Assembly (NCBI GenBank): GCA_000200715.1
Contig: DP000238.1
Span: forward strand, 1,328,593-1,392,592
DNA length: 64,000 nt
Reading direction: 5' to 3'
From: Cenarchaeum symbiosum A
GTDB taxonomy: Archaea > Thermoproteota > Nitrososphaeria > Nitrososphaerales > Nitrosopumilaceae
Shown here: piece after piece, positions 3,223-62,000 of the stretch
Layout of the letters: the number at the start of each line of letters is the position of its first letter
How positions within the stretch are numbered: position 1 is the first letter of the stretch
Notes under the pieces: model-generated
The model's database searches: none
The model's input: the letters and a program-made list of their open reading frames with translations, nothing else
Told to the model about the DNA's origin: nothing
Program-made: the position numbers and the translations under genes

Positions 3223-4677
3223 ATGTCAACACACAGAAAGATAACATACGGTATAGGCACCGCATTCGCGGCAGTCCTTGCCCTGATGATGGTGCCTTCG
3301 AGCTCTTCGATCACCGAGGACGTCCCTAGAATGTACGGGATGGCCGAGGTTACGATCAGGAACATCAACGGAGACATCCTCTCATCAGATACCCTACACA
3401 ACGCCATAACCGACGACGGCGAACGGGCAGTCCTGAACGCGATATTCCTCAACCAGACGATGGATCCCCCCGTAGTGATATGCATGAGTGATGTGGATTC
3501 TGGAACCATCGATGATAGGGAACTAGCAAATAAAACGTTCAGCCATACGGACGAGTTTGCCCCATTTGATCCGGTTCTACCAGAACCAGCGGAACTCTTC
3601 AGGACAATACTCGTTAATGAAGTGGTAACCATAGATGTTCCTGCCAGTGCGGGTGCAATGACAGTGGTTGATGGTTCAGTGACCACGATTAATAATACAG
3701 AGTACGTGACTAGCGAAGAGACGGTCTTGCCCGCTGGTTCGGTGCTCATAATTAATGGCAGAACGGTCACGCTTGAATTTGCATCCTTTGTGAGTGCCGG
3801 TCGCACGGTCCTTAGTGTTCCTACTACTACGGGCTTCCCCGGTGTGCAGAACGTCACTTTTGCCAGTAGCTTTACAACTCCCGACTTTGAGTATAACGCC
3901 AGTGAGATCTTCTTCTACGATATCGAACTGCCGGATGCTCCGCCACTGCCCCTGGGCGTTACTCAGCCTCCGATCAGTTTCAACATAACTAATGCCACTG
4001 ACACTGTTCTCAGGGTTGATTTCAACCGTTACGCGGAAAACAGGACTCTAGATAGGAACAATAACGGCGTCATTGATGAAGGTGAATGGGAGGTAGTCTA
4101 CATCCCACAAGGCGGTGCCAAGTCCCCGTGCAAGAGCTCGCCTGCGCAAGATGATATCACATTAACCACCGTTTACTATGTACGGAACAATACCCTTGTA
4201 TTCGAGGGTGACGAACCAAACCTAGACAACATCATAGATGTGATTCCAGGTCCAAGCAATAATACTTATATCAATGCTACTGGAAGTGAGATTGTAAACC
4301 AATCAATACCTGCAAACACCACCATATCGGTGATACCGGGCCGCCCAGCGGTAAATGTTACTGTAAATGGGGACCAGAGTACGGCGGTGATATCGGTCAA
4401 CTTTACCACAACCAACGACGTCTCCTACTCGGCAGAGAGAAATGACTTTGTCAATAACTTCGCCAACTTTGAGCCGGACCAGCCTCTCAGAACCATGCTG
4501 ATATGCACACTCGACCCGTTCTATCCCACCGATATACCAGCGTTTCCGGACTGTGATTTAGCTGCGGGTGATGACGGCTTGCTGTTCTCGATAATCAAAC
4601 TTACTGGCCAGAGTGTTTCAGAAGGCGACATCGTAGAGGCATCATACACGTTCGACATCACATCAAGAGGAAGCTAA
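3223..4677 (+). CDS. Secreted-protein family paralogue 2 with EF-hand-like loop
   Basis: 484 residues. A signal peptide is clear: a short charged start (MSTHRK) then the hydrophobic stretch GIGTAFAAVLALMMVPS. The mature N-terminus has the family block MYGMAEVTIRNINGDILSS and HNAITDDGE. The loop DRNNNGVIDEGE (4051-4086) is a canonical EF-hand-type calcium loop. Cysteines occur in the VICMSD block, before the loop's end (SPCKSS) and in the LICT...DC block, and the C-terminus is GDIVEASYTFDITSRGS. It is the longest copy because of extra beta-rich, Asn/Thr-rich sequence with many N-x-S/T sites in the middle and after the loop. There is no membrane anchor at the C-terminus. Probably an extracellular protein; partner and function unknown. 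Confidence 0.8.
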   Translation: MSTHRKITYGIGTAFAAVLALMMVPSSSSITEDVPRMYGMAEVTIRNINGDILSSDTLHNAITDDGERAVLNAIFLNQTMDPPVVICMSDVDSGTIDDRELANKTFSHTDEFAPFDPVLPEPAELFRTILVNEVVTIDVPASAGAMTVVDGSVTTINNTEYVTSEETVLPAGSVLIINGRTVTLEFASFVSAGRTVLSVPTTTGFPGVQNVTFASSFTTPDFEYNASEIFFYDIELPDAPPLPLGVTQPPISFNITNATDTVLRVDFNRYAENRTLDRNNNGVIDEGEWEVVYIPQGGAKSPCKSSPAQDDITLTTVYYVRNNTLVFEGDEPNLDNIIDVIPGPSNNTYINATGSEIVNQSIPANTTISVIPGRPAVNVTVNGDQSTAVISVNFTTTNDVSYSAERNDFVNNFANFEPDQPLRTMLICTLDPFYPTDIPAFPDCDLAAGDDGLLFSIIKLTGQSVSEGDIVEASYTFDITSRGS

Positions 4678-9884: not shown

Positions 9885-9950
9885 GAGCCCTCCCCCGGTT
9901 TTTTTTATTCTACGGCAGGGCAAGGGCCCTCCCCCGGTTTTTATTCTACG
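9885..9950 (+). repeat. Tandem 3'-end duplication with T-runs between phasin and phaC genes
   Basis: GCCCTCCCCCGG followed by a T-run and ATTCTACG occurs twice, 9888-9914 and 9927-9950, with a ~38-bp period. The second copy contains the phaC stop codon (minus-strand TAG at 9946-9948), so the first copy looks like a duplicated end of phaC. The T-runs can serve as terminator for the plus-strand phasin genes. Confidence 0.6.
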
Positions 9951-11004
9951 ACCTGGCGGCAAGCCACCTGCCGAGGTCAGGCAATACCTTGTTCTGGGAG
10001 ACCTTGCTGGCTATCATGCCGACATGGCCCGTCGGGTATATCCGGAGCGTCTTGTCCTCGCTGCCCACGGCATAGTGGAGGGGCATGCTGCATTCGGGCG
10101 AGACCAGGTGGTCCCCCACTGCCACCTGCGTGAGGACTGGCATTTTTATCTCCTTCATGGAGACCTCCTTTCCACCTACTAGCATGCTGTTCCGGACCAG
10201 GAGGTTTTTCTGGTAGATGTCCCGGATCCACTGCCGGAAGAGCTCGCCGGGTATGGGGGGCGTGTCGGCGAGCCATTTTTCAACCCTCATAAAGCTGTCG
10301 ACAAACTCTTCGTTTTCGATATTGCGGAAAAAGTTTACGTACTTTTCTATCCCCTGCTCGAACGGCTTTAGCACAGAAAAGCAATAGTACATGAACTCCG
10401 GGGGCATGTTCCCCACGGTATCGACCATCCTGTCGACGTCCACGTGCTTTGCAATGTTGCTGACCACGGTGGTGTCCTTCCAGCCGTCTATGACGGGTGC
10501 CGTAGCCACAAGGTTTCTCACGCTGCCCGGGTGCAGCGCAGCGTATACTGCTGCAAGCGTCCCGCCGGTGCAGTATCCCTGGAGAGAGACAGAAGGGGCG
10601 CCGGACTCGCGCTTTGCAAACTGTATGCAGTTGTCAAGATAGCCGTTTACATAATCGTCAAAGTCAAGATACCTGTCCATTCTGGTCGGCGTGCCCCAGT
10701 CCACCATGTAGACATCAAAGCCCTGCGAGAGCAGGTTCCTAACCCAGCTTCTCCGCGGGTGTATGTCGAGTATGTGGAAGCGGTTGATCAGCGCGTATGC
10801 TATTACCAGCGGGGTGCGGCGGCGCGCGCCCGTAAGCGGCCGGTAGTGGAGCAGCCTCACCTTGTCTTCTTCGTATGCAACATCATACGGGGTCGTCTCC
10901 ATGGTCATCTCGTCGGGCGCGGCGACGAGCCTCGGGGCGTCGGCCACATGCCTGCCAAAGCGCAGCAGCTCCTCTACTGCCCTCGGGTCTATGATGCTAT
11001 CCAT
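9946..11004 (-). CDS. phaC: Class III PHA synthase catalytic subunit PhaC
   Basis: 352 residues, the usual size for class III PhaC (about 350-360). It joins hydroxyacyl-CoA units into polyhydroxyalkanoate on granule surfaces. The lipase-like box GYCTGG carries the nucleophilic Cys in place of Ser, the catalytic Asp is in VAVGDHLVSP and the His in PTGHVGM. VYMVDWGTP and the FDDYVNGYLD region are also typical. Its start overlaps the end of phaE by 8 bp, so the two subunits are translated from one message in the order phaE-phaC. The presence of a full synthase with phasins indicates a carbon store. Confidence 0.95.
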   Translation of the reverse strand: MDSIIDPRAVEELLRFGRHVADAPRLVAAPDEMTMETTPYDVAYEEDKVRLLHYRPLTGARRRTPLVIAYALINRFHILDIHPRRSWVRNLLSQGFDVYMVDWGTPTRMDRYLDFDDYVNGYLDNCIQFAKRESGAPSVSLQGYCTGGTLAAVYAALHPGSVRNLVATAPVIDGWKDTTVVSNIAKHVDVDRMVDTVGNMPPEFMYYCFSVLKPFEQGIEKYVNFFRNIENEEFVDSFMRVEKWLADTPPIPGELFRQWIRDIYQKNLLVRNSMLVGGKEVSMKEIKMPVLTQVAVGDHLVSPECSMPLHYAVGSEDKTLRIYPTGHVGMIASKVSQNKVLPDLGRWLAARS

Positions 11005-22372: not shown

Positions 22373-45241
<22,869 letters not shown>

Positions 45242-58722: not shown

Positions 58723-58983
58723 TGATCGCATGCAGCCCCCATGGCCTCCGACGATGTATTGTGGGATGAGCTGGACTTGCTGCGTATTGAAGGCTAGATC
58801 AACTGCACGCTAGCTGATCATACCAGCAGGCTTTGATGTTTTGGGTCCGGCATCACTTTGATGTGCCGTGATTCATGGCAGATATGCACATGTGCCAGTG
58901 CCGTTATTCATAAGGGTTATCAAAGGCCTTTTTGGACAATGGTGGCTATGATGGGAAATGGACAGTGTACTGCAGCTATTAGG

Positions 58984-58990
58984 TATAATA
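58984..58990 (+). promoter_or_regulatory. TATA-like box of giant gene 2
   Basis: TATAATA lies about 52 nt before ATG 59039, so transcription would begin about 25 nt upstream of the start, leaving a short leader that contains the G-run. Other genes in the window have almost no leader. Confidence 0.5.
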
Positions 58991-59023
58991 CAAGATCGGA
59001 TCGTAGGGCGATCCGCGCCCGGT

Positions 59024-59035
59024 GGGGGGGGGGGG
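59024..59035 (+). repeat. Run of 12 G upstream of giant gene 2
   Basis: Twelve consecutive G end 3 nt before the ATG at 59039. Such tracts slip during replication. The position, in the short leader of a surface-protein gene, is one where a length change could alter translation. Confidence 0.8.
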
Positions 59036-59038
59036 CGC

Positions 59039-62000
59039 ATGATGCGGACAGCCCTGCTGGCGCTTCTGCCGATTATACTGGCCGCGTCGGCGTCGGCCCA
59101 TGCGCAGACTTCGGGCGTGCTCGAGGATGGCATCCTGAACATCTACTTTGAGGGAATAGTGGATGTAAGCGAGTTTAACGCATCGAGGGTGCACCTGAGG
59201 GATGGCAGCACGCTGGGAGGCGGCGTGACACTCTCTGACGGCACCATTATCACCACCGCCGACGGGGCGGTCCTGCGGTTTGACCTGAATGGCACGGGGC
59301 TCGCGCCGGTGCTCGAGTACGCGAATCCGAGGCTGCACTTTGATGCAGGGGCACTGGAGTACACAAACGGCACGTCGTTTCCCCCCGCGTTTGAGCGGAA
59401 CGAGGGCTTTTACGTCGTGGACAGGTATACCACAGGTCCCACTTTGGGCAGTCCAGAAGCCATAGCCTTCTCGCCAGACGGGCTGCGTATGTTTATCGGC
59501 GGCAACGACAACGAGATAGAACAGCACTTGCTCAACGCGCCATACAACGTATCGTCCGCCGATGAAAATGTGATAAGATACGGTCTAGACTCAAGGAGCA
59601 ACCAGAGGATCGGGGGGATTGCATTCTCCCCTGACGGGCTCGAGATGTTTTTGTTAGATGATGCCGAGGTGTGGGGATATGATCTGCAGAGTGCATATGA
59701 TCTGACAGACGCCGTCTCGAGGGCCGGCCGCGACTTTAATCCCACCGCGTCCCAGCTAACTGGAATTGACTTCTCCGACGATGGTACGCGCATGTTCATT
59801 TCAAACAATCAAGGCGACGCCGTGGTCCAGTACGATCTTACCCAGCCGTACAACTACACATCCGCTCCGCTCGGAGGGTCGGGATCCAACGGGGTCGGAG
59901 GCCAGAACAGAAACCCGCATGACGTGGCCTTTACCAACAGCGGCTCCACCATGCTTGTTCTGGCCCAGGACCAGAAGGTGTACAGGTACGACATGAACGT
60001 GTCCTTTGATGTCACGACGGCCATGTACATAGGCGAGGTGGAGATGTCGCAAGAAGATGCCACCCGTAACAGTCGGGGCCTTACACTCTCCCCCGACGGG
60101 CGGCTCATGATAACTGCGAGCACCCAGAGCAGTGGCCAGGTCACCGTGCATGCCCTCAATACCCCGTACGGCAGAACCACCGGGGTCTTTGCAGCGTATG
60201 GAGCAGTCCCGATCAAAACCGCCCAAGGGATAGCCTTTGCCGCGGACGGCATGAGTGTGTTCGCCGTTAACGGGGGAGCACAGGAAGTGACCAGGTACGA
60301 TCTGTCCGCCCCGTTCAACACAGGCAACGCCACCTCCATCAGCACCGTGTCCATATCCGAGGTGGATGCCCCCGGTGGAATAGACTTCTCGGCTACGGGG
60401 GAGACAATGTACGTGGTGGGGCGCAGTGGGGTACACCAGTATACGCTGGACTCGCCCTATGGGGCCATATCCGGCACACCCGTACTCAACCCCATCGCAG
60501 AGGCCGATATTCCGCGCGGCGTGGACTTTTCTCCGGACGGCACGATCATGCTAGTCGCGCAGTTCAGCGGGGGTGCATCCTCATCCCTCCACAGGTACGA
60601 CCTTTCCACCCCCTTTGACGTATCTACTGCCGCTCAGACGGATTCCCTGGACATACTGTCCGTCGCGCCAAGGACCCAGGGGCTGGCAGTCTCGCCCGAC
60701 GGCACAAAGATGCTCTTGGTGGGGAACCCGGGCTATGTCCAAAGGTACGAGATGTCCGAGCCTTACAACCTGTCTAGCGCCGTGATCGTCGACGCGCTCG
60801 ACGTTGGAGGGCAGCAGAGCGGTACGCCGCGCGACATAGAGTTGTCGGCGGACGGCACGCGGATGTTCATCACTACCGCCGGCACATCCAACAGCGTACA
60901 CGGGTACGAGCTTACGGGCCCCTACGACATCACACCGCCCACGGAGATCACGGTACCCGTCGGCAGTGGTGCGTTCGACATAGGCATAGACGACGCGATA
61001 TTCTCCCCCGACGGGACAAGAATGTACGTGATTAACAATGGCAACGTGGAACAGTACTCGTTTGAGCTCCCGTTCTCGCTGATGCCATCCTTTAGCGTCA
61101 ACAACCCGGCCATATCTGAGACATTTGTTCCCGACTTCGGGACTTACTCCGGCATCGCCATGTCCGACAATGGCACCGAGCTGTATCTGCTGGATGGATT
61201 CACGCCCAGTATCCTCAGATACAAGCTGGCCACCCCGTTCGACATATCCGATACCACCCTGCGCGAGGCCTGGGACATTCCTGCAAGCGTAATAACCGCT
61301 GTTGGGTTTGGTCTGACCGGCATGGACCTCTCGGAGGACGGAGTCCACATGTACCTGGCCGGGGAGACAGATGTGTACAAGGTGGAGCTGGGCACGCCGT
61401 TCTCGCTGAGCCCCGCCCCGACCAGTGCCGAGACACTCAGCCTCAGGTCCGGGGACGATTTCATCCGCGGCGTGGCCGTAACGGGCGACGGCAGAAGGCT
61501 GATCACCATAGACGCCGGTGATGATTTTCCCACACCTGACAGCAGAGTCCGCACCAACACGTACGACATGAGCACGCCGCACGACCTGACCACCGCGGCG
61601 TTTCAATCAGGTGAAGAGACGGTTCTTGATACAAACGAGGGGACGGGGATCACGTTTGCCGCCGACAGCCGGCGGCTCTTTTTCACCGGCGGGGATAACG
61701 GGATGGTGCGCCAGCTCTTTGAGCCGCAGACCTATTACGTCGAGATAGTCCCGGGCGCGAGCGAGCCCCTCGCGCTGAGCGCCGAAGGTACGGACAGTGC
61801 GGACTTTACCGACAGAACGGTCGTCGTTGCAATGCGGACAGGATCCGCAGCAGATGCGCCGGTGGTTGATGAAAGGGCATCGGCTGAGAGGACGGTCGTA
61901 GGTGAGACGTTGATGAGCGCCGCAGCTGACGCGCCGCCCGTCGCCGAGGCTGCGGCCATCTCTGCAACGCTGAAAAGGTCGGCAACAGATGAGCCCATGG

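Follow-up and report, generated by a model that had tools for sequence, protein, structure and literature searches.

A run of exactly twelve guanines (G12) lies just upstream of the start codon of a giant secreted-protein gene, giant gene 2, in Cenarchaeum symbiosum A, which lives in the sponge Axinella mexicana as an ammonia-oxidising symbiont. The tract itself, its rarity, the placement of the long G/C runs of this genome near signal-peptide genes, the expansion of the run relative to a paralogue, and the failure to detect MutS or NucS are shown by the analysis. With confidence a little above even, the tract is taken to be a slippage-variable leader tract and one of a set of archaeal contingency loci; that reading includes three predicted elements, namely slippage in this species, the leader itself, and any effect on expression.

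An earlier note had proposed that the run may cause phase variation of a giant surface protein. The observation behind this proposal was confirmed and is stronger than first stated, and the phase-variation interpretation is plausible and partly supported. The rarity of the tract, its place in a predicted leader, and a genome-wide set resembling contingency loci support it, while a role of GTG 59022 as an alternative start is weakened. The stronger evidence comes from the other 14 tracts of the genome and from a related genome (G001), beyond the single tract first noticed.

The window is the 64,000-nucleotide stretch of DNA that was analyzed and spans positions 1328593-1392592 of a single 2,045,086-bp contig. 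Positions are those of the window unless a genome or locus is named, and features are listed in Table 1.

The G12 tract and the predicted leader of giant gene 2

The G12 tract was read directly and is present where the earlier note had placed it. It is preceded by T at 59023 and followed by CGC at 59036-59038, and these three nucleotides separate it from ATG 59039. A second in-frame ATG is found at 59042, and the coding start is ATGATGCGG. The window contains no other G/C run longer than 8 bases, the next-longest being 7-8 bases. All eight of the window's C runs of 7-8 bases are held by giant ORF 1 (22373-45241, minus strand, 7622 aa), at 33172, 34802, 36120, 39813, 39970, 42775, 43489, and 44515, and they include three of the genome's ten runs of exactly 8.

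The signal peptide of the giant gene 2 protein was recognized by inspection. The product matches PF10282 (Lactonase, 31.9 bits) and PF07676 (PD40, 21.3 bits), both above cut-off. In its own genome the protein has 12 matches, including itself, some of which are in open frames of 10,000-12,000 aa. Giant proteins in L018, L014 (the upstream gene), and L022 have a C-terminal tail in common (LLDTIVGWFRSLFGG, FFDAIGDFFRSLFGL, and FFDVIGDFLRSLFRF), which is perhaps a surface-anchoring signal.

The closest paralogue, at genome position 892212, is 67% identical over 400 aa and has the same promoter, leader, and MMR start. Where giant gene 2 has TG12CGC, this paralogue has G5, GGGGGAATACCC. Because the promoter and start are the same and the run is only G5, the G12 tract looks like a local expansion in the giant gene 2 copy. 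Among the eight paralogues with visible N-termini, a long G run directly before the start is found in giant gene 2 only.

Most genes of this genome appear to be leaderless. Across 145 genes, AT-richness is highest from -33 to -24 and TATA-like hexamers are most frequent from -31 to -28, a spacing that fits mostly leaderless transcripts. In giant gene 2, TATAAT is at -55 from ATG 59039, so RNA synthesis is expected to begin at approximately 59010-59015, which would place the tract within a leader of about 24-29 nt. This agrees with the earlier description of giant gene 2 as an exception among leaderless genes. Counted from the first base of the TATA box, the tract begins 40 nt downstream, which is past the predicted transcription start. 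It was also said to fill the leader; the TATA position puts it within the predicted leader, of which it makes up 12 of the ~24-29 nt. Being in the predicted leader and downstream of a conserved TATA box, the tract is placed where its length could alter expression. An upstream in-frame ATG at 58958 was rejected as the start; it sits before the TATA box and would therefore be absent from the predicted RNA.

The tract is outside the reading frame if ATG 59039 is the start and is inside it only if GTG 59022 is used. An extra G would, as had been pointed out, join GTG 59022 to the ATG frame; this holds at G13 and also at G10. At G12, the GTG frame encodes VGGGGA before ending at the TGA within ATGATG, and at G11 or G14 it overlaps the ATG out of frame. 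The mini-ORF is thus a possible three-state switch (stop, fused, or out-of-frame overlap). The paralogue at 892212 lacks an upstream start codon in that frame, which weakens the case for GTG 59022 as the main alternative start; it is retained as a possibility. No less likely is an effect on how the leader is translated or folded.

RNA folding was considered as a length sensor and rejected. The accessibility of the AUG predicted by ViennaRNA is nearly flat from G11 to G14 under four assumed transcription starts. With an assumed start at 59006, and only there, the predicted accessibility is 0.84-0.97 at G6-G9, 0.67 at G10, and ~0.5 above.

Table 1. Features of the giant gene 2 start region (window positions) and long G/C tracts elsewhere in the genome (by locus).
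Feature	Position or locus	Strand	Description
Promoter and leader common to the paralogue at genome 892212	58903-59019	+	103 of 118 aligned positions identical
TATA box TATAATA	58984-58990	+	55 nt before ATG 59039; aligned with TATAGTA of the paralogue at genome 892212
Predicted transcription start zone	59010-59015	+	Expected from TATA spacing
Possible GTG mini-ORF through the tract	59022-59042	+	Frame reading at different G lengths
G12 homopolymer tract, predicted 5' leader	59024-59035	+	Read directly; one of 15 runs of at least 11 in the genome
Giant gene 2, 2222 aa	59039-64000	+	Runs beyond window end; signal peptide MMRTALLALLPIILAASASAHAQ, beta-propeller-type repeats
Tract before secreted-protein gene	L011		~135-140 nt before 720-aa gene (signal peptide by eye)
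C12 in beta-propeller protein gene	L012		After the signal peptide; main frame 1350 aa
C17	L013		64 nt upstream of subtilase (signal-peptide gene)
C13	L014		Between TATA (-35) and start of giant beta-propeller gene
Tract between glycan genes	L015		Between GT4 glycosyltransferase and UDP-GlcNAc 2-epimerase; 12 nt before epimerase ATG
G12 in methyltransferase gene	L016		Mid-gene, in frame
Tract before DUF373 gene	L019		44 nt before the gene
G11	L020		One base before ATG of 225-aa secreted protein; TATA at -28
Two G11 tracts	L022		Two neighbouring giant signal-peptide genes (paralogues), each with G11 near its start
C10	L023		In first codons of DUF4147/MOFRL (glycerate kinase-type) gene
C9	L024		18 nt before DNA methylase
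G10	L025		Directly after signal peptide, in frame; protein apparently related by eye to that of L020

A genome-wide class of long G/C runs

Exact G/C runs were counted on both strands of the whole genome. There are 222 runs of length 7, 10 of length 8, 3 of length 9-10, and 15 of length 11-17. This steep fall followed by a rise makes the long runs a separate class. Extrapolation of the 7-to-8 ratio predicts ~0.5 runs of at least 9 bases and 0.001 runs of at least 11, where 18 and 15 are observed; with the ratio set generously at 0.3 per base, the expected number of at least 11 bases is still 0.4. The G12 tract is not an accident of composition. A/T runs of at least 9 bases number 8 in the genome.

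The long tracts are associated with genes for secreted proteins. Six of the 15 tracts of at least 11 bases have a signal-peptide gene starting no more than 150 nt away, and five of these six genes are giant. The expectation is 5.6% for random positions and 6.5% for random non-ORF positions (binomial P = 2e-4 against the latter, or 1.4e-3 with the L022 pair counted once). Among seven-base G/C runs from 20 control loci, 1 of 28 is so placed (Fisher P = 0.0045). Nearness to any gene start is not enriched, at 9 of 15 tracts versus 49% of random non-ORF positions (P = 0.28), and the enrichment is specific to signal-peptide genes. Genes were called with a crude ORF-based caller and signal peptides with a hydrophobicity rule rather than from annotation. 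The rule missed L011, where the signal peptide was seen by eye, and L012, where it is out of frame; neither was added to the six.

All 18 runs of at least 9 bases were inspected for position. Leader or promoter tracts at signal-peptide genes are found at giant gene 2, both genes of L022, L014, L013, and L020, with a promoter-spacer placement at L020 and probably at L014. A reading-frame placement is seen at L012 and L025, and the L016 tract is also within a reading frame. At L012, a run of 11 C would connect the signal-peptide frame with the main frame, whereas 12 or 13 C would not; the assembled copy, with 12 C, is therefore out of frame. No clear switch logic is apparent at L009, L010, L017, or L021, and the tracts of L011 and L019 are further upstream of a gene.

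Both giant genes of L022 are preceded by a predicted leaderless mini-ORF of 9 aa (MKVTFWSVS and MKVAFWSVL; locus positions ~3870-4011 and 9890-10026). The mini-ORFs begin 30-31 nt after a TATA box, and the mini-ORF stop overlaps a second start. The frame of this second start joins the signal peptide at G10 or G13, and the assembled tract is G11 in both genes.

Slippage, related genomes, and rival explanations

NucS and MutS gave no match in the C. symbiosum genome; controls matched in 7 and 11 of 14 named genomes. MutS was searched for in the C. symbiosum genome only. NucS is absent from 55 of 61 family genomes as well, and missing mismatch repair was thus rejected as a special feature of this species and is permissive at most. 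Runs of at least 11 bases occur in 34 of 151 family genomes and are absent from the other 117, so missing repair alone does not explain the tracts.

G001, the only genome of the same genus among those searched, has 3,166,131 bases, a GC content of 69.5% in its sampled part, and 178 runs of at least 11 bases. The sampled regions cover 44 of these 178 tracts and 57 runs of at least 9. G001 has a 2.1-kb transposon family, with an IS66-like transposase recognized by eye, that carries a variable G run just inside both ends, next to GTAC. At 48 ends with the same short flank, the run is G5 (1 end), G8 (5), G9 (9), G10 (20), G11 (8), G12 (2), or G13 (3), with lengths derived by hand from the listed coordinates.

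Seven full transposon copies were compared (L056, L057, L059, L062, L068, L069, and L075). L059, L068, and L075 are opposite in orientation to the other four, and the twelve mixed-orientation pairs were dropped. Across the nine pairs with matching orientation, the 2084-nt cores are free of indels and show 2-18 substitutions, and 16 of 18 tract comparisons differ in length, a part of which homopolymer sequencing error could account for. The G001 tracts were rejected as surface switches, as many sampled ones are transposon ends or short tandem arrays, and they are used here solely as evidence of slippage. No homologue of the first 400 aa of the giant gene 2 protein was found in G001 at E<=0.001, and thus no orthologous tract. 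In another relative, G010, the gene for a giant-protein homologue begins with a G11 run that sits between TATA (-33) and ATG.

Two side observations concern tracts in other relatives. A run of 11-13 C on the coding strand lies between genes for a TFIIB-type factor and a SufC-type ATPase, named by eye, in five genomes of three genera (L099, L101, L104, L123, and L124 of G011, G045, G123, G047, and G070) and appears to be kept at one place across genera. The longest runs encountered, of 39 C and 27 C close together, are at ~2059-2130 of L117 (G048:C9).

The main rival of the slippage-switch reading is neutral slippery DNA. Without mismatch repair, G runs past a threshold would expand and drift where they are harmless, mostly outside genes, and their presence before surface genes would come from non-coding stretches that are long and fast-evolving there, with no selection for switching. 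This explanation is considered rather unlikely. It is consistent with the many long tracts outside predicted coding frames, with the undetected MutS and NucS, with a nearness to gene starts in general that equals that of random non-ORF positions, and with the many sampled G001 tracts that have no obvious switching use. Against it stands the excess of tracts at signal-peptide starts over random non-ORF positions, and the tracts of L012, L016, and L025 lie within coding frames, from which neutral drift should be eliminated. Nor is the long class a tail of the short runs, given how much scarcer runs of exactly 8 are than runs of 7.

Far less probable is a fixed functional tract, a strong ribosome-binding or G-quadruplex leader element that would hold translation at a constant level with no variation in length. 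In its favour are the 3-nt distance from the run to the AUG and ViennaRNA folding with quadruplexes enabled, in which a two-layer quadruplex can form at G8 and above and a three-layer one at G15 and above. Against it, the run is only G5 in the paralogue that shares the promoter and start, giant gene 2 is alone among the eight paralogues in having the long run, and the other long tracts are at varied places, some of them C-rich on the coding strand. An artefact of assembly, cloning, or sequencing is judged slightly more remote still. Homopolymers are error-prone on all sequencing platforms, and the run could be shorter or mixed in the cell and lengthened or fixed by cloning or base calling. In five fragmented relatives, picked after the list was inspected (G010, G013, G015, G032, and G044), a contig end is found within 150 nt of at least 11 of 31 tracts, a pattern that assembly failure at such runs would produce; this fits either mixed lengths or sequencing trouble. 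Random error would hardly produce the two-class length distribution and the gene association, and long G runs are also present in the single-contig relatives G033, G045, G057, and G058.

Under the favoured reading of a slippage-variable leader tract, replication slippage, without known mismatch repair, would add or remove Gs. As the tract is between the predicted transcription start and the start codon, changes in its length would alter the leader and not the promoter. Such a change may alter a structured G-rich stretch beside the AUG, the frame of the overlapping GTG mini-ORF, or both. The altered leader would change translation initiation of the giant secreted beta-propeller protein, and the outcome would be a population mixed for expression of a giant surface protein.

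A wider proposal is tentative and falls somewhat short of an even chance. It holds that ~15-18 poly-G/C loci form a phasome that would switch giant beta-propeller surface proteins, a secreted protease, glycan enzymes, and methyltransferases in the sponge. Three layouts would be used, namely a leader tract, a reading-frame tract, and a TATA-to-AUG spacer that places the start of a leaderless RNA, and the tract habit would be amplified in G001.

Comparison with known phase-variable systems

Slippage phase variation is a classic bacterial means of varying surfaces that face a host, predator, or virus. Campylobacter has poly-G/poly-C contingency loci. If the slippage reading is true, such loci in an archaeon that lives with an animal would suggest that bacteria and archaea both use the strategy, and would hint at a way for a clonal symbiont within a sponge to vary its surface. 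If the phasome is also true, it would be slippage-based phase variation in an archaeon, and its spacer mechanism would be peculiar to leaderless genes. The slippage idea is directly testable from sponge metagenome reads.

No account of phase variation by slippage in Cenarchaeum or other archaea turned up in the accessible parts of the open-access literature, which do not include the C. symbiosum genome paper; that paper could mention the runs. In the available text of a 2025 review of phase variation (PMC11868660), archaea are mentioned once, as a future extension. The words "phase variation" and "homopolymer" are absent from the accessible portions of two papers on sponge Thaumarchaeota (PMC7848895 and PMC6697440). 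The parts available of PMC3711429 and PMC5290159 deal with frame transitions in one thaumarchaeal genome and with mismatch repair, respectively. Homopolymers near gene starts have been proposed as general switches, with 18 archaea included (PMC2831843). In contrast to the long poly-G leaders considered here, which the available part of that paper does not treat, the main finding of the paper is short poly-A/poly-T within coding genes, and Cenarchaeum is unnamed there.

The C. symbiosum tracts are like the poly-G/poly-C phase-variation systems of Neisseria and Campylobacter in several respects. Long G/C homopolymers form a small separate set, they occupy promoter, leader, and reading-frame positions, and the adjoining genes include those for surface proteins, glycan enzymes, and a DNA methylase. 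The types of phase variation described for Neisseria, in the part of PMC5320596 available, are promoter, frame, and C-terminal. C. symbiosum differs in being an archaeal host with TATA promoters and mostly leaderless genes, in which any length variation or effect on expression is putative.

The closest likeness to the promoter-spacer tracts of Neisseria fetA and porA is found at L020 (G11), L014 (C13), and the G010 homologue (G11), where the run lies between TATA and the start codon. The G12 tract of the window differs in lying past the predicted transcription start and is not predicted to be a promoter spacer. The spacer of a leaderless gene would itself differ from those of fetA and porA, as it would set the start of the RNA relative to the AUG and has no -35/-10 counterpart.
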